The translations under genes were made by a program, and so were the position numbers. A stretch of 26,377 nucleotides of DNA, from positions 1-26,377 of IMG/VR virus record IMGVR_UViG_3300043446_002735; one strand, written 5' to 3'. Shown here in pieces: positions 1 to 12,705 of the stretch. The DNA is from a virus. Numbering within the stretch: the first letter of the stretch is position 1; each line of letters starts with the position of its first letter. Under the pieces are notes generated by a model, which saw only the letters and a program-made list of their open reading frames with translations, was not told the origin of the DNA and ran no database searches.

Positions 1-1929
1 AGTGAAAACAACCGAGACGTAGACACCATCAAGTATTTCTCAGACTATGTGGCCGGTAAGATTCCCCGGGCGGCACTACGCAGTTTCGTTAAACAAGCAC
101 AGTTGGAACGCAGACTCAAGCGCGATCCAACAGAGGGAGAACGATACTGGTGGCGCATAGACAAAGAAGGTCGTGGCCGAGATGGTGCCAGTATCGAACT
201 TGTGGCTGCCAGCAAAAAGGAAGCACTGGAAAAAGCCAGAGAGGAATGGAGAATTCCCGCTGGCAGCACAGCAATGAGCCGAGCAGAAGCATATCCCCTG
301 CGTCCATACCAAGAAACTACAGCACAGTTTGCTACAAACACTGGCCTGACCTTGAACGGTCGCCCCAGCAATCCCGACGGCCGTTATGTGATTGTGCCTG
401 AACAGGATAGACAAACAGTATACTATAGATTCCAGGCTGCTGGACCTGATGATGCTAACCTAGTGTTGAGACAGTGGCGACAAGCATATCCTGGTAGAGT
501 ATGGCTGACCTTGCGAGATGACAATGGTGTGCTGGGTCAACCCCAAGGCACAGCCACGCCACGATTTGGCCTTTGGGACTTCAGTGAGGGCGGATTCATC
601 AACAGTCAGGGTAGGGTAGGTCAAGGTGGTCAACTGATTGGTGGCGATAGTTTCGACACCGCACGTGAAGCGGCTCGACGCAATGGGCTTGTCAGCCGCA
701 TTGACATGGGCGAAGTTGAAATTCGCAGAATCCCACAACAACCGGGACAACAAGGTCAAGGTAACTGGGGTATCTGGATGCGTGATGCCAATCGTTTTTC
801 ACGTGCGCCCGATCAACCCGACAACAATGTATTGCGTAGATTCCCCAGTCGCGAAGCCGCTGAGCAGTTTATTCGACAAGGTCGAGAAAATAATCCAAAC
901 ATGCGAACCGACATTGAAGTTCGCGAGATTGAACCAGAATTACCAGACCTGTTCCCAGAACTGCCACGCAGATCAGCAAATCAACTTTCACAAACCGACA
1001 TAGAGAATCGTCTGGGTTGGGGCGGTCAGGCCGCAGATGCCAACTATGAAGTTGTGAATCGTGCTACCATGCAGCCAGTGTTCCGTTTTATTGCGAACAC
1101 ACCTGAAGAGGCCAATACCAAGTATGCTCAAATATTAGGGGCCATGGGCATGCCACCTGAAACTGAAGATTACGGCTATAGAGACATTGTGGTGCCCGGC
1201 AGCACCATAGACCTACAGCGTCGTCTCGCGGCACAATCTGATCCATATCGATCTGTACCTATACCAGGTGTGACTGACGTTGAACTTGACATTCCCATGG
1301 CCGACAGAACCGATGGCAGCAACAATAACTATGAACTTTATAATAGGCTAACGGACCAAGTCATTGACACATTTCCGGCTCGCAACGACAGTGAAGCACA
1401 GGTTCGCCTAAACGATTTCCGAGACTTCAGTGCGTTGGCAAGACAAAATCCTCAATGGGATGTGGGTGTTCGCCGTGGTCCTGGTGTGGATAATACTGTG
1501 GCACAGACCCGTGACCAACAGCAGGGCGGCATTGTTGACGTCGCCGGCGAAACTCCTTCGGCCACTGGAGAGTTCACAGGCAATTGGCTTATATTAGATC
1601 CCGATGGCAATGAAATACATCGCTTCTCGGGTGTAGGCAATGTTCAAAGTGATGCTAACCGTGTGGCCATGCAATGGTTACGACGAAACCCAAGACACAT
1701 GCAAGACGGAGTTGAAATCGCTCCCGAAATGAGCAACTTTCCTAGCCGAGGACGAGAACTTGTTGGTTGGAGCGTGAGATTGCCCGATGGTCAAGAAGTC
1801 GCACAATTCCTTGGCAGCGAATACAGCCGAGATGATGCTAACAGTCTTGCCGCGGAGTATCTGCGTCAACAAGGTATGGGCGTGAGTGGTGAAGGCTTTA
1901 CAGTCGAACCTGTGTGGAGAGAGGTATGA
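1..1929 (+). CDS. Tandem-repeat protein, probable virion-associated (5' end outside window)
   Basis: The frame is open from base 1, so the gene begins upstream; the GTG at 49 is just an internal Val codon. The visible 642 residues contain about eight degenerate repeats of 45-60 residues, roughly at 47-86, 128-171, 188-244, 254-311, 347-400, 443-492, 527-576 and 588-642. Each has a strand with an aromatic residue and a polar turn (as in WLILDPDGNEIHRF), then a helix with a 'dAn..a..wl' pattern, ending in a second strand such as VEIAPE or FTVEPVW. I read this as a beta-beta-alpha-beta repeat. Composition is rich in R, Q, N and D, with no signal peptide or membrane segment. The next gene starts inside its stop codon (ATGA). 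Function is unknown; position beside LxE-tagged proteins suggests a structural or packaged protein. The coding call is sure, the role is not. Confidence 0.85.
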   Translation, partial: SENNRDVDTIKYFSDYVAGKIPRAALRSFVKQAQLERRLKRDPTEGERYWWRIDKEGRGRDGASIELVAASKKEALEKAREEWRIPAGSTAMSRAEAYPLRPYQETTAQFATNTGLTLNGRPSNPDGRYVIVPEQDRQTVYYRFQAAGPDDANLVLRQWRQAYPGRVWLTLRDDNGVLGQPQGTATPRFGLWDFSEGGFINSQGRVGQGGQLIGGDSFDTAREAARRNGLVSRIDMGEVEIRRIPQQPGQQGQGNWGIWMRDANRFSRAPDQPDNNVLRRFPSREAAEQFIRQGRENNPNMRTDIEVREIEPELPDLFPELPRRSANQLSQTDIENRLGWGGQAADANYEVVNRATMQPVFRFIANTPEEANTKYAQILGAMGMPPETEDYGYRDIVVPGSTIDLQRRLAAQSDPYRSVPIPGVTDVELDIPMADRTDGSNNNYELYNRLTDQVIDTFPARNDSEAQVRLNDFRDFSALARQNPQWDVGVRRGPGVDNTVAQTRDQQQGGIVDVAGETPSATGEFTGNWLILDPDGNEIHRFSGVGNVQSDANRVAMQWLRRNPRHMQDGVEIAPEMSNFPSRGRELVGWSVRLPDGQEVAQFLGSEYSRDDANSLAAEYLRQQGMGVSGEGFTVEPVWREV

Positions 1930-3191
1930 GAGCCCGAGAATTTGTTAAAGAATCAATAGATGCTGACCAAGTGCTCGACTATGTAAAACGTACACACGCA
2001 CCTGAAAAGTTTGACATCGAGTACAGCATAACTGATCATCCTAAATGGGAATTAGAATCCATTCCTCTGTCAAAATTAAAACTGGACCCCGATGGTGAAG
2101 CACAAGATCCCTATGGTCGTGTGAACTGGGTTGACTATGACAAAGTACGTGATTTAGTTCCCAAGATTGGATCAGTATTAAAGAGCAGACCCATTGTGGT
2201 TGATTCTCAAGGTTGGATAATTGATGGCAATCATCGTGCTATGGCTGCTGTGGAAGCAGAATTGACCAGTGTACCTGCTCTTGTACCTGTTGATTTAAAC
2301 GAAGGTTTAAAAAGCAAACTGGCAGGAGCCGCTCTTGCAGGTGGTATGGCTCTGGGCGCGGGCGGCGCCAATGCCATGGACTGGAAAGACGCCGCAATGA
2401 CCGGTGCTATGTTTGTGCCTGGTATAGGACCAGCAGTCAAAGCCTACAATGTTGGCAAGAGTTTGTATCAAGCAGGGGCAGCCGCTAAACAATACAGAGA
2501 TGCTGACAAAGATTTGAAAACACTGGCAGCGCAACAAAAATCTAGGCCAAACCAATCATCAACAGTGGATTACGATCCTAACTATAAGGCCGAGATTGAG
2601 CCAGTGGATGAAGATGTACCACAGCCAGGTGATTTCAAGTTGATGGGACAAAACTTGTTCTTGAAGAATCTAGCAAGAAATTTAAAACAACGATACCCCG
2701 ATGCCACTGTCAAACTATCAAGTGACCGTGTGACAGCATACCACAACAAGGGAGACGATGAAGCCCTGACTGTGATGGGCACCGAAGTCATGGACAGCGG
2801 ATATATTGGTGTTGGACTAGACGATGCGTTTACAGAATCGTTTCAAGGAGTGCTGGTTCCCACTATTAAACAAACAACAGAACAACTGTTGGCTGCCAAT
2901 CCAGGAACAAAGCCTGCATTGTTTTTGAGTACCGACAATTGGAACCCAGATGCTTGGAATCACATTGCCACAAAATTAGGGTATAGACTTGTGGCGGATG
3001 ATGAGCCATTGGATGAAAACTTTGCAGACGGCAAGGTAAAAGGTAAGAGTCGTCCGGGCCGCGTAAAACGTGCAGGTGCCAGTTGTGCAGGATCAGTCAC
3101 AGACTTGCGAGCCAAAGCAAAAAAGTATGGTGGCGAACGTGGCCGCATGTATCACTGGTGTGCCAACATGAAGGGTGGTAGAAAGAAATGA
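1926..3191 (+). CDS. ParB/sulfiredoxin-like + GNAT-like multidomain phage protein
   Basis: The start is the ATG at 1926, overlapping the previous stop and preceded by a purine-rich GGAGAGAGG; a GTG at 1914 is less likely. The 421 residues fall into parts. Residues 1-10 (MRAREFVKES) look like a T4 capsid-targeting peptide. Residues 30-125 resemble a ParB/sulfiredoxin-type fold with IIDGNHRAMA at 98-107. Residues 128-190 are Ala/Gly-rich and hydrophobic. Residues 235-358 resemble a GNAT fold, ending in AWNHIATKLGYRLV. Residues 365-421 form a basic tail with GASCAGS and YHWCANMK, a C-terminal module I recognise from other T4-type aquatic phages. LxE tripeptides (LNE at 124-126, LDE at 362-364) sit at domain joints. 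Enzymatic activity cannot be inferred; packaging into the head is a hypothesis. Confidence 0.8.
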   Translation: MRAREFVKESIDADQVLDYVKRTHAPEKFDIEYSITDHPKWELESIPLSKLKLDPDGEAQDPYGRVNWVDYDKVRDLVPKIGSVLKSRPIVVDSQGWIIDGNHRAMAAVEAELTSVPALVPVDLNEGLKSKLAGAALAGGMALGAGGANAMDWKDAAMTGAMFVPGIGPAVKAYNVGKSLYQAGAAAKQYRDADKDLKTLAAQQKSRPNQSSTVDYDPNYKAEIEPVDEDVPQPGDFKLMGQNLFLKNLARNLKQRYPDATVKLSSDRVTAYHNKGDDEALTVMGTEVMDSGYIGVGLDDAFTESFQGVLVPTIKQTTEQLLAANPGTKPALFLSTDNWNPDAWNHIATKLGYRLVADDEPLDENFADGKVKGKSRPGRVKRAGASCAGSVTDLRAKAKKYGGERGRMYHWCANMKGGRKK

Positions 3192-3652
3192 AAGTTAATG
3201 ATATCATATTAGAAGTGTTTGACCAACCCTATGCTTTCAGATGGGACAACACTCAAGACGATCCTGATCAGGATCCCCACTACGATGCCTATGTAAAACT
3301 ACCCGACGGCGGCCACCTGGAAATCAATTTCTACACTGATCCTGGTGTTGATGGCGATGAGGATTGGGTTGTGGAATTTTGGCGAGACCGCAGTCTTGGC
3401 ATTACCGGAGCCGGTGATCAACAGCGTGTGTTTGCCACAGTGCTCACAGCCATTGGCCAATTCATAGAAATGGAAGAACCCGAAACCCTGCGTTTCACAG
3501 CCGACAAAGATGTTGAGCCCGGGCAAAAACCCATGAGCCGAACCAACTTATACGACCGACTGGTACAACGCTATGCTCAGGCCTGGGGGTATAGATTGGA
3601 TCGCAGTGACATGGCCGATACCACAGTTTACGAACTATTCAGAATAAGATGA
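3188..3652 (+). CDS. Conserved phage protein, unknown function, LxE-type N terminus
   Basis: 154 residues, starting at an ATG that overlaps the previous stop (ATGA) with GGTAGAAAG upstream. The N terminus MKVNDIILEV carries I-L-E at residues 7-9, matching the (L/I)xE cleavage consensus of T4 prohead protease. The body is acidic and aromatic, with alternating beta-like segments (LEINFY, WVVEFW), then a Gly-rich turn GITGAGDQ, a helix (VFATVLTAIGQF) and a C-terminal part with SRTNLYDRLVQRYA followed by WGYRL. I know this architecture only as an uncharacterised family in T4-type aquatic phages. No catalytic motif, signal peptide or membrane helix is visible. Confidence 0.8.
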   Translation: MKVNDIILEVFDQPYAFRWDNTQDDPDQDPHYDAYVKLPDGGHLEINFYTDPGVDGDEDWVVEFWRDRSLGITGAGDQQRVFATVLTAIGQFIEMEEPETLRFTADKDVEPGQKPMSRTNLYDRLVQRYAQAWGYRLDRSDMADTTVYELFRIR

Positions 3653-3873
3653 TACCATACCAAAACAACCTCAATGGCTCGCAATACAACCTGCAAGAAT
3701 CGGTAGTGCCTGGCTTTCATGTTTACCAGGCTCGAGTCAAGGTCAAAAACGAACTCTATACCAACTCAATGGATGTGGCCATATTTGCCAAAAACCCCTC
3801 AATGGCCCGCCAGTTACTAATGGCACAATACGGTAAGGAATCAGTAATTACCAACGTGGTTCAGATTGCCTGA
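3649..3873 (+). CDS. Small conserved phage protein, unknown function
   Basis: 74 residues, ATG overlapping the stop of the upstream gene (ATGA), so probably translationally coupled. After a polar N terminus with L-Q-E-S at residues 15-18, the protein has a strand (FHVYQARVKVK), a second strand (SMDVAIFAKNPS) and a helix (MARQLLMAQYGKE), ending in a strand VITNVVQIA. The pattern resembles a small beta-beta-alpha-beta unit and is similar in size and order to the repeats of the protein encoded at 1-1929. Function unknown. The tight spacing and coding-like composition make it a real gene rather than a chance frame. Confidence 0.7.
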   Translation: MIPYQNNLNGSQYNLQESVVPGFHVYQARVKVKNELYTNSMDVAIFAKNPSMARQLLMAQYGKESVITNVVQIA

Positions 3874-3884
3874 TACATAAGTGC

Positions 3885-4676
3885 ATGATTGATTTATGCA
3901 CTGTAGTGTTTCAGGATGAACTAGACATTTTAAAACTACAAGCCCAGAGTGTTGAACTGTACGGTCATGACATTGGTGTGATCCGTGTGATCACCAACGA
4001 CGATTCCACTGTGGACCCTGCTTGGTGGGGAACACTTGCCGATCAAGTACAAGTGTTACACAGAAGTCAATTTGGCGACCACTGGAGCCACAACGGTTGG
4101 GTCAGTCAACAGGCACTGAAAATTCTAGGATCTGCTGACAGTCGTAATCCCTGGACCATGATACTGGACGCCAAAACCATACTGGTCAAACCCATAGACA
4201 TATTTGACTCACAAGATCGACCACAGGTGGGACAGCTTGACATATTCCCTGTGTTTGCCGAGAGCCAATCTATTGTGAATCAGTTGTTTGGCATTGACCT
4301 GCAACGCCAATTGGGTCCTGGCGGGGTTCCATTTTTTGTACATAACCAACAGGCACGTGACATGATCGACCATTTGCAATCCACCACGCAAATGGTATTT
4401 GCTGAGTGGTTCCAGTTGCAAGGCATGCTCACAGAATTCATGCTGTACTCGGGTTATTTGCAAAGCAAGGGTCTGGTAGATAAATTATACAACACCAAAA
4501 AAACAGCCATGACTGTGTGCAATGTGTGTCACAGCGAAGTTGCTGACTGGAATCGAAAATTTGCCATGATGACCAAGGCCACTACAGTGAGTGTTCATAG
4601 AAACGCCTGGCACCAACTGTCTGCACAGCAACAAAAACAATACATTGATTTTTTACAATCGCGAGGTATCAAATGA
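3885..4676 (+). CDS. Glycosyltransferase-like protein (DUF6492-type)
   Basis: 263 residues. The start ATG at 3885 has no good Shine-Dalgarno sequence. The N terminus (IDLCTVVFQDELDIL) and PWTMILDAKTILVKP at 89-103 follow the pattern of DUF6492-like GT-A proteins, where the LDAKT segment stands in the place of the metal-binding DxD strand. Here the motif is D-A-K rather than D-x-D, so metal binding and activity are uncertain. No signal peptide. It overlaps the following PIG-L-like gene by 4 bases, and both are followed by an SGNH-like gene, forming a three-gene carbohydrate cassette between structural genes. Likely role: sugar transfer or recognition in the infected cell; acceptor unknown. Confidence 0.65.
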   Translation: MIDLCTVVFQDELDILKLQAQSVELYGHDIGVIRVITNDDSTVDPAWWGTLADQVQVLHRSQFGDHWSHNGWVSQQALKILGSADSRNPWTMILDAKTILVKPIDIFDSQDRPQVGQLDIFPVFAESQSIVNQLFGIDLQRQLGPGGVPFFVHNQQARDMIDHLQSTTQMVFAEWFQLQGMLTEFMLYSGYLQSKGLVDKLYNTKKTAMTVCNVCHSEVADWNRKFAMMTKATTVSVHRNAWHQLSAQQQKQYIDFLQSRGIK

Positions 4677-5188
4677 AAGCACTGTGTCTTGTGGCACACC
4701 CAGATGACTGTGTGATTTTTGGTTACAGTTACATGCATAATCATCCCGAAATGACCTGGACCATTTGTTACCTAACATACTCGGAGTGGAATCCACGTGG
4801 TCGAGAACTCAAAGAGTTTTGGTACAAAAGAGGAATTGCCTGTATTTTCTTGGGCTACACAGACGACCATCGCGACATTGAAAACAAAAAAATCAGTTTC
4901 AATCAAGAACAAGCACGTAGAGAAATTGGCAACATAATCAAGCCCTATGACTTGGTACTCACACACGATGAACACGGAGACTATGGACACATTCATCATG
5001 AGTTTGTTCATCACTGTGCCCGGCAGCATCCCAACTTGGTGACATTTGCTCCACCAGGTCAGGGTCGTGAATACACCCTACCCCCAGGCACGTATAGCCT
5101 AGAAGAATTGCCACTGCATGGCAATATTGTCCGGGACTTTCACCCCACTCAACATCGCAACAGTTACAAGGAATTGCCATGCACTTAA
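4673..5188 (+). CDS. PIG-L/LmbE family deacetylase
   Basis: 171 residues, starting in an ATGA overlap. The N-terminal AHPDD at 8-12 is the signature zinc site of PIG-L/LmbE N-acetyl-sugar deacetylases (His9, Asp12; Asp11 as the usual catalytic base). The second cluster THDEHGDYGHIHH at 97-109 supplies the third zinc-binding histidine and the family's C-terminal motif. The length is short compared with typical members of 220-270 residues, and the C-terminal part after residue 125 is brief. Family members remove N-acetyl groups from GlcNAc-containing glycans or glycolipids. The substrate here is unknown. Neighbouring glycosyltransferase-like and SGNH genes fit a joint role in building or trimming a glycan. 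Confidence 0.8.
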   Translation: MKALCLVAHPDDCVIFGYSYMHNHPEMTWTICYLTYSEWNPRGRELKEFWYKRGIACIFLGYTDDHRDIENKKISFNQEQARREIGNIIKPYDLVLTHDEHGDYGHIHHEFVHHCARQHPNLVTFAPPGQGREYTLPPGTYSLEELPLHGNIVRDFHPTQHRNSYKELPCT

Positions 5189-5988
5189 TGATAGCCGGCT
5201 GCTCATTTTCAGCAGTATCACAGTCACACCCGGGCACAGCATGGTCAGAGTTGCTGGCTGCTAGACTGGGATGGCGACTGACTAACCTAGCACGTCAAGG
5301 CTGTAGCAATGGCGGGGTGCGTGTGCAGATTGATGAAATCCTGCGCCAACGCCCTACATTTGCCATTGTCACGCCCACGTTCTGGGACCGAATGGAAATT
5401 CCCGCTGCCGCCGCACCATTTGACTGGAACAAAAGCACCAACGGATGGAATTGCGAAATACAAAAACATCTGCAGGATCGCACACTCAAAAATGGCTACC
5501 GACGTGAAGATGGCATAGACAATGTCAACTATGGCCACAACAATTACAACATGATCTGTGAGACTATCTATACCTTGGCAGAAAACTTTGACCACCCTTA
5601 TCGTTCGGGGCTGATTAGTAAAACCGCTCAAACCGCTGTGCGTCACTATATCGATGGCATTTATGATTCAGAGTGGAAAAAACAGCAGGATGAATGGATC
5701 ATCAAAGAAGGCATCTATGAACTGTATCACAGTGGTATAAATTTTTTGTTTGTGCCTGTGTTGTTATGGCCCTTTGATCCTGAGTTGGGCAATGGTCAGT
5801 GGCGCAATGTCATCTCTACCATTCCTGACCGCATGATCATGTTCAATGGAGAAGAATCTATCATGCCCATTTGTGGCAACAACAGTTTTGAGGGTGAAGA
5901 TCCAGGTTACCATTCTGGGCCGTTGGGTCAGCAAATTATTGCTGACAACTACTATCGCAGAATCACGCAGGATTTTGGATTAGCCTAA
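5179..5988 (+). CDS. SGNH/GDSL-like hydrolase
   Basis: 269 residues. ATG at 5179 is preceded by AAGGAA at a good distance and overlaps the upstream gene by 10 bases; a second in-frame ATG at 5188 is possible. The N-terminal MIAGCSFS at 4-11 resembles block I of SGNH hydrolases with the nucleophilic Ser, LARQGCSNGG at 37-46 resembles blocks II/III (Gly and Asn of the oxyanion hole), and GYHSGPLGQQIIAD near 244-257 resembles block V with the catalytic His and a preceding acidic residue. SGNH enzymes deacylate or acylate sugars and lipids; in phages they occur on virion proteins or as glycan modifiers. It ends 7 bases from the convergent radical SAM gene, leaving no room for a terminator. Confidence 0.65.
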   Translation: MHLMIAGCSFSAVSQSHPGTAWSELLAARLGWRLTNLARQGCSNGGVRVQIDEILRQRPTFAIVTPTFWDRMEIPAAAAPFDWNKSTNGWNCEIQKHLQDRTLKNGYRREDGIDNVNYGHNNYNMICETIYTLAENFDHPYRSGLISKTAQTAVRHYIDGIYDSEWKKQQDEWIIKEGIYELYHSGINFLFVPVLLWPFDPELGNGQWRNVISTIPDRMIMFNGEESIMPICGNNSFEGEDPGYHSGPLGQQIIADNYYRRITQDFGLA

Positions 5989-5995
5989 CAGTCAT

Positions 5996-6979
5996 TTATC
6001 GCCCACAAGAGTTCACACACTGATAAGGTCTACCTTCAGCAATGCTGGCATGGGCCCAGGCCTGTTCCACTGAGTCAAACCACTGTAAGCAATGTTCCAG
6101 CGGATATTGTAGTGCGTTGTTTTCATGTACCATGGCGGCCAATTCTTGATTGCCTGGGTGAGCCATGGTCTTGGGGTAAAATCCCAGATAGCAACAGGGG
6201 TAAACAGTGCCGTCGGCAGCCAAGTATATTTCACGATCGCGTTTGTGTAAGCAGTCAAAAGACAAATTGGTTTGATCTTTATCAAACTTTGCGTTCTTAT
6301 TGTACCAGGTCACGTGCCCTTGCAGTAGATCTTGGACGTTGGGAGTGTGGTCATCTTTGGGTCCAATCCAGTGACTGAAAGTGCCATCACGATCAAACAC
6401 AGGTCCACGGTCTCGGCCATCATAGATGTTTTCAAACTGTAAAAATCCCAGGTCTTTGGCCATTTCTCGGCACTGTGACTCTTGATGACGATTGTGGTCA
6501 AACGGCACAAATCTCCACACAGCCCGGCCACCTGCTTGAATGTAAGCAGTGGCATTGTCTATCACACGGGACCATTCTGTGTCTTGACGATACAGACTGT
6601 GTGTATCTGCTAACCCGTCTATAGCAAAGCCAATGGTAACAAGTGGATGGGCCAATCTGCTCCACCAATTGGCACTGCGAGCACTGCCATTGGTGTTTAT
6701 CTTTACCTGTACATCATGGCCCGTGATGTATTGTACTATTTCCAGTCCCCAGCGACTCAGCGCAAAGTCACCTAGATTACCATTGAAGTTGACCACATCT
6801 AGTTGTGAAAGAAATTCAGGACTGAAAATTTTTTGTATATCTGATAAACTTAGTTCACAGTCGGGATAACCTGAATTGTAATCGCTGCCCCGGTAGTTGC
6901 GCATGCACATGGGACACCTAGCATTGCACCGTGTGGTTATTTCCACATGTACACGGCGAATGTCTGACAGTTTCAACAT
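5996..6979 (-). CDS. Radical SAM protein with SPASM-like C terminus
   Basis: The only clear minus-strand gene. I place the start at the ATG at 6979 (MLKLSDIRRVHVEITTRC); an upstream TTG at 7060 would overlap the divergent gene. The 327 residues have the CxxxCxxC cluster at Cys18, Cys22 and Cys25, which binds the [4Fe-4S] cluster that cleaves S-adenosylmethionine. A TIM-barrel core includes VKINTNGS at 92-99. C-terminal cysteines at 243, 262, 263, 297, 321 and 325 (DGTVYPCC, CVNSC) look like a SPASM/twitch auxiliary-cluster domain. SPASM proteins modify peptides or sugars; the substrate is unknown. It is longer than QueE and has the SPASM tail, so it is not a convincing preQ0-pathway QueE. A late-type promoter abuts the start and no Shine-Dalgarno is visible. 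Confidence 0.8.
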   Translation of the reverse strand: MLKLSDIRRVHVEITTRCNARCPMCMRNYRGSDYNSGYPDCELSLSDIQKIFSPEFLSQLDVVNFNGNLGDFALSRWGLEIVQYITGHDVQVKINTNGSARSANWWSRLAHPLVTIGFAIDGLADTHSLYRQDTEWSRVIDNATAYIQAGGRAVWRFVPFDHNRHQESQCREMAKDLGFLQFENIYDGRDRGPVFDRDGTFSHWIGPKDDHTPNVQDLLQGHVTWYNKNAKFDKDQTNLSFDCLHKRDREIYLAADGTVYPCCYLGFYPKTMAHPGNQELAAMVHENNALQYPLEHCLQWFDSVEQAWAHASIAEGRPYQCVNSCGR

Positions 6980-6984
6980 GTAAA

Positions 6985-6992
6985 TATTTATA
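6985..6992 (-). promoter_or_regulatory. T4-type late promoter for the radical SAM gene
   Basis: On the minus strand this reads TATAAATA, an exact match to the T4 late-promoter octamer. Only five bases separate it from the ATG at 6979, so a transcript starting at the usual distance would be nearly or wholly leaderless. Confidence 0.6.
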
Positions 6993-7004
6993 GGAGCATA
7001 TTTT

Positions 7005-7012
7005 GATAAATA
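7005..7012 (+). promoter_or_regulatory. Late-promoter-like site (GATAAATA)
   Basis: GATAAATA fits the relaxed NATAAATA late consensus of marine T4-type phages. It sits four bases before the ATG at 7017 and faces away from the minus-strand late promoter at 6985-6992. The closeness to the start codon makes its use uncertain. Confidence 0.4.
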
Positions 7013-7016
7013 TCTA

Positions 7017-7322
7017 ATGCCAACAGAATTTGTATTAGCACTTGCTGACGTCAACTGCAACTGGTCGGGTGAACCGCCACGCTACAGATGCTATGTCAAC
7101 GACGAGTTGTTTACAGAACGCACATGGATTTGGGTTGATCGCTACTTAGAAGAGCAGATACCGATACAGGCATCACCGGGTCAGTACCTCATACGTTATG
7201 AACTGGTAGACGTTGAAAATGCCCAACTAACTGTTGATAATTTTAGAATACAACACGGACCTGCTAGTATAGAGCAAACAGGCTGTGTAACAATACAGGA
7301 GTCCCAGTATGAAAATGCATGA
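7017..7322 (+). CDS. Small beta-rich conserved phage protein, unknown function
   Basis: 101 residues, divergent from the radical SAM gene with 37 bases between start codons. No in-frame alternative start lies nearby. AGGAG at 6992-6996 is 20 bases from the ATG, too far for a normal ribosome site. The sequence PRYRCYVNDELFTERTWIW, then LEEQIPI, GQYLIRYELVDVE and LTVDNFRI reads as alternating beta strands, consistent with a small beta-sandwich such as a carbohydrate-binding or Ig-like domain. I recognise the pattern only as an uncharacterised phage family. No catalytic motif. It overlaps the next gene by 14 bases. Confidence 0.7.
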   Translation: MPTEFVLALADVNCNWSGEPPRYRCYVNDELFTERTWIWVDRYLEEQIPIQASPGQYLIRYELVDVENAQLTVDNFRIQHGPASIEQTGCVTIQESQYENA

Positions 7323-7530
7323 AATCATGGAAACCGCCTCTGCAGGCGCCAGTTGCGCAGGTGGAGTAGCACCGGTGGCCACACCCCTGGGCATGCTGTC
7401 AAGATCAGGCGGAACCATGCTGTCAGGTAAATATGTAACGAGTTCGGACCCCACGCCGAACACGCCTAAAGAATACAAAAGGAACCGAAATCGTGCTCGC
7501 GGACAGTTTAAAAATTCTATTAGCAACTGA
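7309..7530 (+). CDS. Small Gly/Ser/Thr-rich phage protein with IxE N terminus
   Basis: 73 residues. AGGAG at 7297-7301 lies seven bases before the ATG, a strong ribosome site. The first residues MKMHEIMETASAG carry I-M-E at 6-8 followed by small residues, resembling a capsid-targeting peptide. The segment GASCAGGVAPVA at 13-24 shares the GASCAG string with the C-terminal module of the protein at 1926-3191. The tail is basic (YKRNRNRARGQFKNS), which would suit DNA or scaffold contact. Its 3' end overlaps the Dps-like gene by 38 bases in another frame. Function unknown; packaging into the head is an inference. Confidence 0.7.
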   Translation: MKMHEIMETASAGASCAGGVAPVATPLGMLSRSGGTMLSGKYVTSSDPTPNTPKEYKRNRNRARGQFKNSISN

Positions 7531-7936
7531 ATACGCATTCAGTATCAAAGCCCAACTGTTCCATTGGAATGTGGAGGGTCCTGATTTTGCACAACTGCAT
7601 GAGTTTTTCGGAAACCTATATGAAGAAGTCTACGACGGTTCCATAGACAAAACAGCAGAATACATTCGCGCCCTGGGCGACTACTCGCCAGGCAGTTTTG
7701 AACGCTTTGCAGAATTATCCACTATCAAAGGGCAAACAAAAATCCCACGTGCCCGTCTCATGATTGAAGAATTATTGGCCAACAACGATCAATTGCTTGA
7801 TTTACTCAACGAAACATTTGCCACTGCTGAACAAGAAAATCAGCAAGGCATTGCAAATTTTATAGCAGAACGCATCGATGCTCATCAAAAGCACGGCTGG
7901 ATGCTGAGAAGTTTCTTGAAAGATGAGAGAGCATGA
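7493..7936 (+). CDS. Dps-like ferritin-family protein
   Basis: 147 residues with a GTG start, preceded by AAAAGGAACC at suitable spacing; no ATG fits. The core HWNVEGPDFAQLHEFF at 24-39 is the Dps signature, with His24 and His36 at the 12-residue spacing of the E. coli ferroxidase ligands His51 and His63. Asp52 and Glu56 match Asp78 and Glu82. The equivalent of Asp67 appears to be Gly40 or Asn41, so the di-iron site may be altered. Family members form 12-subunit cages that oxidise and store iron and often bind DNA. In a phage the role could be protection of DNA from oxidative damage. It overlaps the next gene (ATGA). Confidence 0.8.
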   Translation: MLADSLKILLATEYAFSIKAQLFHWNVEGPDFAQLHEFFGNLYEEVYDGSIDKTAEYIRALGDYSPGSFERFAELSTIKGQTKIPRARLMIEELLANNDQLLDLLNETFATAEQENQQGIANFIAERIDAHQKHGWMLRSFLKDERA

Positions 7937-8706
7937 CAGATCCCATATATGGAATAATCGAACGCCTGGCCTTGATTGAGGGTAAAACAACTCCAGTCAC
8001 AGTGAAGCATGGTTTGAACGCACAACAACGATCAGCAGGACAATTGCCTGCATTGTTCAAGCCCACAAATATTTCACCTACCTTGGCCAAGAAACCCTAT
8101 CAAAATCATCCCATGGATGGCCGACTGGTTGGCGACAGTGTAGAACCCAAACGGTCACCGCTGGAAGAAGCCATGCAAGAAGTTGAAGAAGACATGATCA
8201 GTCGTGTGAAAGGCCAGTTTGCTGACTACTTGGAGAAACTGGAAAAAGAACATCATCTTGACAGACATCTTGTGAACAAAGCCAAGCATGATTTAAAAAT
8301 TGGCGATGACGGTGAAGTGGACGAACAGGATGAAGAAGACGCTGCCGACAGCGACGAAGAAGAAATTGATGAGAATGCCACCTGGGATCAAGATGTACAA
8401 CCCATTGGAGATCCTGCTGACACAGAAGTAGCACATGGTATTGAAGACCACTTGGCCGCGGCAGTGGCCGCACCAGCCGCACCAATGTCGGCTGTGAGCG
8501 AATCGCCGGCAAAAACATACACCCTTGAAGATGGCACCTGCTTGGAGTGCTGGGGCGATGATGACCGCGGTTACGAAGTTCGTCATGGTGAACGTAGATT
8601 ACCCACACGTTTTCCAAACCTCGGCCATGCTGACATGGCAGTTCGACTGTTTCAAAAGCGCAGACAGAAACAGGACCTAAGTCAGGATTATATAGAAGAA
8701 CGATAA
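7933..8706 (+). CDS. Acidic phage protein, unknown function
   Basis: 257 residues, ATG overlapping the Dps stop codon. The first 17 residues contain I-I-E at 8-10 and L-I-E at 14-16 followed by Gly, again matching (L/I)xE. A predicted helical stretch (about 75-120, many E, K and L) may form a coiled coil. Residues 125-155 are extremely acidic (repeated D and E), followed by an Ala/Pro-rich linker near 175-190. The C terminus (YTLEDGTCLECWGDDDRGYEVRHG and following) looks like a small folded domain with a hydrophobic helix. High acidity plus a coiled coil resembles head scaffold or DNA-mimic proteins, but no family is recognised. Confidence 0.75.
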   Translation: MTDPIYGIIERLALIEGKTTPVTVKHGLNAQQRSAGQLPALFKPTNISPTLAKKPYQNHPMDGRLVGDSVEPKRSPLEEAMQEVEEDMISRVKGQFADYLEKLEKEHHLDRHLVNKAKHDLKIGDDGEVDEQDEEDAADSDEEEIDENATWDQDVQPIGDPADTEVAHGIEDHLAAAVAAPAAPMSAVSESPAKTYTLEDGTCLECWGDDDRGYEVRHGERRLPTRFPNLGHADMAVRLFQKRRQKQDLSQDYIEER

Positions 8707-8707
8707 T

Positions 8708-11700
8708 ATGATAGTAGACCAATTATTCACCCCCAAACTCATTCGCGAAGGCGAAGTATACGACCTAGGTCGTGAATACGGTGCACCTGCTCCGGGCAAG
8801 AAGCCACTGCCACGTGGCGGTAGTATTCCAAGACGCCATGATGACGAACCAGACTTCATGGACCCAGACCAACGTAGACTACGTGCTGACCAAGAGCGTG
8901 TCAAGAAGGCACAAGATGAATATCATGCCAAAAAAGGTGTGGCGGAAAGCAATACTAATATAAGTCGACTACAGCAAAGGATTGATAATGCATATAGTCG
9001 CATTTACAACAGGGGAGACAATGGGCTAGAATATATGATGGGACACGACCAATACATTTCTGGCCTAATGGACAGATATCTTGACGACACGCTGTTTGCC
9101 GCATCTAACCCTAAACATTTGAAGTTGTTAGCAAACAGTTTAGAGACAATTGCCAATGACATGGAAGAGGACTTAGTAGAAGGAGGTGTGGCGGAAGGCA
9201 CAGAGGACATGCCTTTTGGTTCTGTAACACAACCTGACCAAACACAAACATACGTGGCACCTTCTAGACAAGACATTTGGGACAAGGCTGAATTAACCAA
9301 TCGTCAAGCCGAAGTAAGAGATTACAAACAAACCTTGTTGCGGTATGCAAGAAAAAATGGTCGCCAGGCCGCAGAGCAAGCCTGGGCTGAAAAGACCGAT
9401 GTAAAAATGACCATTGAAGAAATACTGGAATTTTTAGATGCCACTATTGCCGATCCTGGCCTCACTCCCGAGGAATTCCTGGGCACTCAAGGACTGGAAG
9501 AAAACGCCGGTCAAGACAGCAAGTCTTGGATGGACAGCATTCGACAACAACATCCTGATGTGCGATTTGTGCAGGCAAAAATGCCAGGTGCACCTATTAT
9601 AGCCTTGGTCAATGGCAAGCCTGTGGCACAGTTTGATACCAAAAAAGGTGTGGCCGAAGGGCGGCTTAATAAACAACGCCGACTCAACGAAGCCATGCTC
9701 ATGGAAGATCCCATCTATCGCAATTTCAAGCGTGTGGGTCGTTACATTGCTGAACGCAAGATGAGCGAAAAAGAAATCTTGCAAGTGTTTGCTGATGCCG
9801 AAGCAGGCATGACTGACAAGGCCACCGGAGCCAACCGTACGTTCCTGGGTCGTGGCAAAGACACTGCCATGGACTTTGCTGGTGGCGTGTCCAATGCGCT
9901 CAACAGCGTATGGTCTGGTATACAAAACTCAGTGCCTGTGTCTGCTGTGGATGTGGCCTACGATCAAGCCACTGACGCACTTGCTGGTCTCACAGGTGGC
10001 CAAAAAGGCGCCGTGATGCAGGCCATCAAGAAGTATCGCAATCTAGCCAAACAATATCCCAAAACAGCCGGTCTTGCCAAAGGAGCCTTGGTTGCTATCA
10101 CAGGCTTGGCCACTGGCGGCGCCAGTTTGCCTGCTGTGGCTGCATTGGTGTATGGTTTGGATTCGGCCATCAAAGGAGAGAAAGCGTCAGACATTGCACT
10201 CAAGGCCGGTGGAGCAGCTGCCACTGCCTGGGCTGGTCAAAAAATTGCGTCGGCATTGGGCGGTCAACCCACAGGCACTGATGCTGGTGGTCTTGATCCC
10301 AGCCAATTCCCTGCTTTTGACGACGAAGGCAACTTGATGCCTGGATTTCATATCAATCCAGAAACTGGCTCAGCATACTACAATCCCAATATCCCCAACG
10401 AAGTCAGTGCCCTGTCTGTGCCCACTGATGCTGGCCTAGCCGGCACACCCATGGGAGGTGGTACCTATACAATACAAAACGGTGACCAACTTGGCTACAT
10501 AGCACAGGCCAATGGCGTCAGCGTTGAAGACATTAGAGGCCTGAATCCTCAGATTGACTTCAGCAAGCCATTGCGACCTGGCATGGAAATACAGTTGCCT
10601 GTGGCTGGCACTCCAGGTCAAGGTTCAGTATGGCAAGGTTATCAAGGCGGCATGTATGGCGATAAAGTTGCTGGCGCTACATCCAATGCTGGCCAAGGTT
10701 TGCCAAGTCACGCAAGTGCCGCAGGCGATTACGGCACAGGCGGGGGAGCACCCATTGACTACACCTCGCCTGGACCAGAAAGCATAGACAGTCTAGGTAA
10801 CAAACTAGAATATGGTATTCCTGTCAATGCCAAAGGAAGTTTTGTCCCACCTAACCCAAATTTGCCGCCACAAGAACTTGCCGCTCAACAAGCCGCCTAT
10901 GATGCCTGGAAATCGGATTTCATGCGTCGTTTTCCAAATGCTTCACCAGGTCCCGATGGCTCTATGTTGAGTTTCAAGCCAGGCCTTGCACCAATGCAAA
11001 TCTTGCAAAAGCCAACATTACCAGCAGGTGTTCAAGAATCAGTCAAGTTTAAAATAATTCCTGCTGATCGTTTGATTGACCAAAAGACCACAGTATTGGC
11101 CTGGGCATTGAATGAAAGTGTGGGACGAAAAGGCAACAGCATTAGTTTAACCACTCTTGGCACTTACACAGTGTTTGAAAACGTTCGAAGAGTAGCCAAA
11201 GCAGTGAATGTAATGGAACTTAAAGGTGTGCCTGGTAGTTCACGCCCTGCTTACTACCGTCCAGACATGCCCGGCGGTCCTGGCAAAGCCAGCAAGCCAG
11301 GAATAATCGGCCGTGGCCTCAACTGGTTGGACAAAGCCGCTGGCAAAGTTGGCGGCGCTCTAAGCAACTTTGGACATCAGTTTACGACCGGTGTAACCAA
11401 AGAAAAACTCAAGATGAACTGGCATCAGGCCGGCAAACCCAGCGACTCAGATCAATTGGCCGCTTGGTTGGTCAAACAAGGTGTGCCACAAGAAGTTGTG
11501 ACCAGTGTGTACGGCAAAATGGGTATTCCTTACACCGCACCGGCTGTGCAAGCCGCACCACAACCCGCAGGTCAAACACCTGCAGCCACTGACACCACCA
11601 CAGGTGGCGCACAACGATCTGCCTATGCCGGCACCAATCCAGCAACTGGTAAAGCCTGGACAGGCGATGAGTTGAGAAACAAGTTTTTCCCTGCACAACC

Positions 11701-12444: not shown

Positions 12445-12705
12445 ATGTCAGCAAAAACATTCAACGGCGAGCAAAAACTCAAACTCACCCAAATCATCAA
12501 CGAAGGCATGGCCGTCATGCATGAAATTGACACACTTCAAGGTGGGCTTAATGATACCATCAAAGCCGTGGCCGAGGAACTGGAAGTCAAGCCTGCTATC
12601 TTGAAAAAGGCTATCAAACTGGCACACAAAGCCGAATTTGGTCGAGAAAAACAAGATCACGAAACACTTGAGACTATTCTCGAGACTGTGGGCAAGACGC
12701 TATAA
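12445..12705 (+). CDS. dsbA: DsbA-like dsDNA-binding protein (late transcription)
   Basis: 86 residues, ATG seven bases after AGGAGA. The all-helical, charged sequence has a helix (LKLTQIINEGMAVMHEIDTL), then NDTIKAVAEELEVKPAILKKAIKLAHKAEF and an acidic C-terminal helix. Size and pattern (D.. KA.AEEL.VK......A...A.K) match T4 DsbA (89 residues), a small double-stranded-DNA-binding protein that stimulates late transcription, and its relatives in T4-type phages. This is family recognition by eye, not a search. Control is notable: a consensus sigma-70 promoter within an inverted repeat that also covers the ribosome site. The gene's end overlaps a late-promoter octamer. Confidence 0.55.
   Translation: MSAKTFNGEQKLKLTQIINEGMAVMHEIDTLQGGLNDTIKAVAEELEVKPAILKKAIKLAHKAEFGREKQDHETLETILETVGKTL

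Follow-up and report, generated by a model that had tools for sequence, protein, structure and literature searches.

The stretch of DNA considered here (the window) is an IMG/VR fragment of 26 kb (26,377 nt), in which six genes, named after their first positions (1926, 3188, 3649, 7309, 7933 and 8708; proteins p1926 to p8708), encode an (L/I/V)xE motif near the N terminus. The original prediction placed a motif of this kind at each of these genes, as is indeed found, and took the six as marks of proteins that are packaged in the phage head and cut by the T4-type prohead protease gp21. Comparison with related sequences partly supports it: five of the six sites are backed, the comparative support being strong for 1926, 3188 and 7309, good for 3649 and moderate for 8708, and 7933 is the exception. 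With a probability of about 0.78, the (L/I/V)xE sites would belong to head-packaged, gp21-processed effector proteins and polyproteins. The phage is a member of a group of large, uncultured T4-type phages, and its DNA polymerase is closest to those of Phosso, Atu_ph07 and 121Q/GAP32-type jumbo phages (42-49% identity).

N-terminal motifs in the window

The peptides that end in the motif are given in Table 1, except that of 7933, MTDPIYGIIERLALIE↓G (↓ marks the place where a cut would fall). As had been claimed, the inserted enzyme genes (3885, 4673, 5179 and Dps) show no such motif up to residue 22. Motif statistics were computed on the first 20 residues of 30 called window genes, with expectations from shuffled N termini and with some start-site error, because the gene caller was a simple heuristic. 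The loose form, (L/I/V)xE, also occurs in 12445 (INE↓G), 16411, 19610 and 20740 and is therefore not significant by itself in the window (10 observed, 6.65 expected, P=0.13); on this count the motif frequency is weak backing for the original prediction, and the loose count was therefore discarded as evidence. A strict T4-like form, M[RK]x(1-3)[EDQ][FILM]x(1-2)E, is found three times where 0.09 matches are expected (P<1/300). Its counts in the relatives G001, G002 and G003 are 9, 8 and 6 for 0.68, 0.51 and 0.50 expected, respectively (each P<1/300), and 2 for 0.24 expected in G004; the two relatives with 8-9 strict matches (0.5-0.7 expected) are 260-340 kb in length.

Two carriers of the loose motif were rejected as probable false positives. 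In 7933, the residue at P3, the third before the cut, is non-aliphatic in many homologues though the glutamate is kept, and no module swap is seen. In the DsbA-like protein of 12445 (window 12445-12702), QIINE↓G lies in a helix kept in all homologues and is counted as falsely positive for the loose motif. These two cases, together with the loose count, are what might be expected if a common short motif had been picked out after the fact. That explanation is scarcely credible, since the strict-motif test and the collection-scan and downstream-anchored tests described below are all far above chance, and the downstream-anchored junction counts contradict it for 1926, 3188 and 8708.

The original prediction took 1926 and 8708 without internal sites. 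Additional sites of the same type are present at E126, E229 and E364 of p1926 and at E80, E163, E317 and E328 of p8708, and both proteins are read here as polyproteins. Between the tagged genes 3649 and 7309 lies an untagged gene block (window 3885-7060), whose presence is variable in relatives and which includes a radical SAM gene on the minus strand (phrog_21308, 7e-22).

Table 1. Features of the tagged and modular genes, with their positions in the window.
Feature	Position	Strand	Remark
p1926 N-terminal peptide MRAREFVKE↓S	1926..1952	+	capsid-targeting-like; predicted cut after E9
p1926 module 1, ParB-like, residues 10-126	1953..2303	+	PHROGs ParB-like families, E 3.6e-6 and 5.3e-6
p1926 module 2, residues 127-229	2304..2612	+	Sec-like signal peptide GLKSKLAGAALAGGMALGAGGANA directly after LNE126
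p1926 module 3, residues 230-364	2613..3017	+	folded alpha/beta domain; weak acetyltransferase matches
p1926 module 4, residues 365-421, NFADGK..., basic, Cys-containing	3018..3188	+	after LDE364
p3188 N-terminal peptide MKVNDIILE↓V	3188..3214	+	predicted cut after E9
p3188 mature domain, FDQPY family	3215..3649	+	phrog_16075 match, 6.8e-11
p3649 N-terminal peptide MIPYQNNLNGSQYNLQE↓S	3649..3699	+	predicted cut after E17
p7309 N-terminal peptide MKMHEIME↓T	7309..7332	+	predicted cut after E8
p7933 E16 (LIE↓G)	7978..7980	+	probably no cut site
p8708 N-terminal peptide MIVDQLFTPKLIRE↓G	8708..8749	+	possible second targeting-peptide type
p8708 GVAE linker 1, KKGVAE80↓S	8936..8947	+	close relatives differ here by gain or loss of modules
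p8708 GVAE linker 2, GGVAE163↓G	9185..9196	+	
p8708 GVAE linker 3, KKGVAE317↓G	9647..9658	+	homologous module N-terminal after MIIRDLIIKE↓ in L027
p8708 LNE328↓A	9683..9691	+	precedes conserved core xLMEDPIY
p8708 LysM domain, residues 587-631	10466..10600	+	Pfam PF01476, E 1.1e-8, above cut-off

A shared N-terminal peptide on unrelated proteins

The likeness of the 1926 and 3188 N termini to the peptide of T4 internal proteins, on which the original prediction was built, holds: IPII and IPIII of T4 start with MKTYQEFIAE↓A. Published work gives L/I-x-E as the motif of gp21 and finds residues 1-10 of IPIII sufficient for packaging (PMC9026906). The targeting residues of IPIII are 4 and 7 (PMC9026906); if the peptides are aligned from the cut, F7 falls on the conserved F in MRAxEF, and Y4 is without a clear counterpart.

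A scan of IMG/VR at the DNA level for MRAxEF[IVMT]xE returned at least 120 stretches, versus 4 when E and F were exchanged. Variants with D or K in place of the last glutamate (P1) were found in 17 and 47 stretches, respectively, the majority of which are not tag-like starts; in several tag-like cases with K at P1, LSE, LAE, LKE or QGVAE is no more than a few residues away. Among the matches listed, 121 tagged proteins fall into 25 clusters by their mature parts, the largest with 66 members, and the peptide therefore sits on unrelated mature proteins. The commonest of these 25 families (66 of the 121 proteins listed; loci L122-L241) consists of proteins of 120-130 residues with the signature LNRVMMAxAxxDG, often encoded as an adjacent pair. 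An ADP-ribosyltransferase (ART-PolyVal, 4.7e-14) is among the tagged proteins; Alt, an internal protein of T4, has this activity. Similarly, eleven records reached independently of the tag contain 30 tag matches versus 1 in the reversed control, as counted from the match list. Judged from its sequence, the tag agrees with T4-type capsid-targeting sequences in every feature testable here.

Exchange of the peptide between relatives is seen for 3188, 3649 and 7309. The mature domain of p3188 follows MRATEFITE↓ in L198 and QGVAE↓ inside a polyprotein in L291. The p3649 peptide (MIPYQN...LQE↓S) is replaced in relatives by MRAKEFVNE↓S (L007 and L005) or MRAHEFCLKE↓G (L018), with the junction after the same glutamate, and homologues of p7309 start with MRAREFIAE↓T, MRANEFILE↓T, MRAAEFVKE↓D or MRAYEIME↓N. 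The cut of the head-module protein gp23 is predicted at LKE↓NASAGSTASGNIAT, and the post-cut sequence of p7309 is similar to it. Past their predicted cuts, the p7309 family (window 7309-7527; E↓NASAGASSAGGIAPV) and the N-terminal region of gp23 from G001, G002 and G004 (E↓NASAGSTASGNIATL) resemble each other.

Many tagged proteins are without assigned function, and MRAxEF(I/V)xE might accordingly be a targeting or translation-start peptide for the tail, the membrane or a replication compartment rather than for the head. The closeness of the peptide to the T4 tag, which extends to EF(I)AE, the tagged ADP-ribosyltransferase that parallels Alt and the similarity of the p7309 site to the gp23 cut region all argue against such a destination, which is very improbable.

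Modules and junctions of the polyproteins

The p1926 protein contains just four [LIV]xE sites (E9, E126, E229 and E364), and these form the borders of the tag and of four modules, with homology support for 9, 126 and 364. Its tag reads MRAREFVRE↓D, MRAKEFVRE↓D and MRATEFIIE↓S in the relatives L041, L036 and L193, respectively. Module 1 is internal in L023, L021 and L102, with LTE 3-4 residues upstream of the aligned start, and homologues of module 2 start after LDE↓G (L122), LTE↓G (L283), LAE↓G (L236) or MEE↓G (L040). No homologue of module 3 was found. Module 4 exists in stand-alone tagged forms (L150, L201, L215 and L235) and as GVAE↓NFADGK in L022. The AlphaFold model of p1926 has a mean predicted local distance difference test score (pLDDT) of 59 and reaches 81-86 at residues 241-270; only domain limits were taken from it because its predicted template modelling score is 0.37, and a Foldseek search with it gave no match at E<=0.001 (best E 0.1). 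The pLDDT is below 50 at residues 1-7, 112-128, 207-235 and 358-375, and all four predicted cut sites therefore fall inside poorly ordered stretches between predicted domains or no more than 2 residues away from them.

For p8708, 64 related loci were fetched. Its close relatives keep LKE, LQE or IRE before the cut, in a tag of a different type (MIVDQLF.PKPLKE↓[GN]), and polyproteins elsewhere start with MFVDDLFDQKTLTE↓A, MIINNLFQE↓S or MNLNNLFE↓N. Entire modules appear or vanish beside the GVAE sites between close relatives of p8708, and up to eight QGVAE↓G linkers separate unrelated stretches of about 50-250 residues in some relatives. Among the loci collected, 45 open reading frames contain two or more GVAEG, versus 0 for scrambled forms, and variants with D, Q or K in place of E are rare; this comparison rests on multi-copy reading frames only, the totals of the QGVAEG collection scan being lower bounds for both real and scrambled forms and not used. 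Unrelated activities are combined in one chain, such as the ParB-like, signal-peptide and basic modules of p1926, a twin-arginine translocation (TAT) signal and TonB_2 in a G003 protein, and GNAT in L313. No peptidase was reported among the Pfam matches of nine polyproteins.

To keep the junction rule from being circular, only the sequence downstream of the junction was used to locate three modules. The contexts, which are distinct but not phylogenetically independent, have E at P1 in 31 of 31 cases and [LIVM]xE in 27 of 31 before NFADG (p1926 module 4), with P7-P10 at background; [LIVM]xE in 25 of 25 before xLMEDP (the p8708 core); and E in 15 of 15 and [LIVM]xE in 14 of 15 before FDQPY (the p3188 domain), with a background of 0.22 for [LIVM] and 0.06 for E. 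In 48 cases, including the 3188 domain of the window, a given domain stands behind an N-terminal tag in one phage and behind GVAE in another. Among non-GVAE homologues of the linker modules, [LIVM]xE lies within 6 residues of the border in 471 of 708, versus 109 of 854 at a control position 25 residues further on.

Several modules begin with export signals. The sequence EIDRRGFLK, picked without regard to linkers, was found in 27 stretches, and among the 23 contexts listed most internal ones have it four residues past [VLM]AE↓ with G, D or A as the next residue; a further context is MRAREFIAE↓IDRRGFLKAL, a few lack a site of this kind and at least one (L514) matches by chance. In the G003 module, the TAT_signal and TonB_2 matches come immediately after VAE↓G. 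A test of the proximity of hydrophobic cores to junctions (5 of 12 versus 2.1 expected) is suggestive only. TAT and Sec signals normally function at the N terminus, and cleavage would therefore account for their place after junctions.

The linker is also kept at the DNA level (GGTGTGGC.GAA; window 8936-8950, 9185-9199 and 9647-9661), as a dispersed in-frame repeat. It is strongly biased in its codons, with GGT at 88% versus 37%, GTG at 75% versus 29% and the rare alanine codon GCG, in unseeded linkers, at 79% versus 7% in the background. Such a repeat may drive module shuffling, and in the strongest competing explanation the linkers would be dispersed DNA repeats or recombination points, with GVAEG as a by-product and no proteolysis. 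However, one boundary can be kept by different peptides (MRAxEFxxE, LDE, MAE, VSE or IKE) that have in common only an aliphatic P3 and a glutamate at P1, GVAD, GVAQ and GVAK variants are rare, and the signal peptides come after the glutamate. The DNA-level explanation leaves the interchange of tag and linker and the P3/P1 rule at non-GVAE junctions unexplained; it probably describes how modules spread, and as a full account of the junctions it is unlikely.

Head protease, known systems and implications

A homologue of gp21, which the original prediction called for, lies outside the window; each of the 13 related records in which gp23 is intact encodes one. In relatives of 178-340 kb, gp20, a gp67-like gene, gp21, gp22 and gp23 follow each other in T4 order. 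The 13 records are ten larger ones, reached by tag, linker or TAT searches, plus G001, G002 and G004, and gp21 is near gp23 in each. Records without gp21 are also without gp23, bar one that is cut at its end, and a scrambled-linker control set gave a gp21 match in 1 of 12 records.

From the shared tag, the unrelated domains behind it, the interchange of tag and linker, the [LIVM]xE consensus, the signals after junctions and the position of gp21 next to gp23 in relatives, a pathway of targeting and packaging, cleavage, injection and export can be inferred. The short N-terminal peptide, typically MRAxEF(I/V)xE, would bring unrelated proteins into the prohead core, in the manner of the T4 capsid-targeting sequence, and gp21 would cleave after the glutamate. 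Proteins of the 1926 and 8708 type would be cleaved again at internal [LIVM]xE sites (LNE↓G, VDE↓D, LDE↓N, GVAE↓G and LNE↓A), giving separate small proteins in the head. The freed proteins would be delivered together with the DNA, and modules with a TAT or Sec signal as their new N terminus may be exported by the host. The full scheme, in which T4-type jumbo phages pack tagged modular effector polyproteins into the head and the prohead protease cleaves their repeated [LIVM]xE↓ linkers, freeing effectors and exposing TAT/Sec signals for periplasmic export after injection, has about even odds.

Several observations weigh against gp21 processing of packaged effectors. In the cultured phage collection, no match was found for the commonest tagged family and no homologue for p1926, p8708 or a GVAE polyprotein, and tag matches are not in excess in eight cultured phages of the T4 superfamily, among them the closest in DNA polymerase (5 versus 4 in the control). 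Atu_ph07 has no tag excess, and because of this its virion proteomics (PMC6102473) is not usable as a test. No nearby [LIVM]xE is present at 237 of the 708 homologous module starts, and the unusual conservation of the linker DNA, with its excess of GCG, indicates that DNA copying contributes. Among the p3649 homologues (L005, L007, L018, L124, L236, L299 and L074), some have an MRAxEF-like start without an xE site, such as MRAQDFIKTVQG; it looks as if targeting and cutting were separable. Finally, the window, a fragment, carries neither gp21 nor the head module.

This last point would also suit cleavage by another phage or host protease, before or after injection, and processing by zincin-like peptidases has been proposed for polyvalent proteins (PMC5512222). 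The junction consensus nevertheless equals the motif published for gp21, and every one of the 13 informative relatives has gp21 alongside gp23, which makes a protease other than gp21 quite improbable.

Gp21 processing would place these proteins beside IPI, IPII, IPIII and Alt of T4, which similarly carry a short N-terminal peptide ending in (L/I/V)xE, with an EFIAE core, on unrelated mature proteins; a gp21/gp22/gp23/gp67-type head module in relatives and a tagged ADP-ribosyltransferase like Alt complete the likeness. The group differs in its consensus MRAxEF, which is one residue shorter, in the many more protein families involved and in internal junctions that join modules. Alt itself is cut near both ends (PMC5694885). 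Polyvalent proteins (Iyer et al. 2017, PMC5512222) are likewise multidomain, combine unrelated activities and are thought to be injected with the DNA, and one tagged protein matches ART-PolyVal. Embedded zincin-like peptidases are mainly proposed for them, without being a defining feature of all, whereas the repeated [LIVM]xE junctions point to a head protease acting in trans. The T4 scaffold gp22 and head proteins of SPN3US and phiKZ (PMC5694885) also undergo several cuts of one precursor after xxE by a related protease; in contrast to the folded, reusable domains predicted here, their multiple cuts strip scaffold or propeptides. In phage P1, the capsid signal of DarB (PMC9024508) is an N-terminal peptide that directs an effector into the head, but the Dar proteins have no common consensus and are unrelated in sequence to the tag. 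In the open-access PubMed Central literature, no phage paper on GVAEG was found, nor any paper on [LIVM]xE-linked head polyproteins.

If this interpretation is true, the set of proteins injected by a large group of uncultured phages could be predicted from sequence alone, by means of a nine-residue tag and a two-position rule for junctions, and the T4 capsid-targeting system would be widened beyond a few internal proteins to include a modular polyprotein. It would also point to head maturation as a means by which phages can unmask secretion signals.

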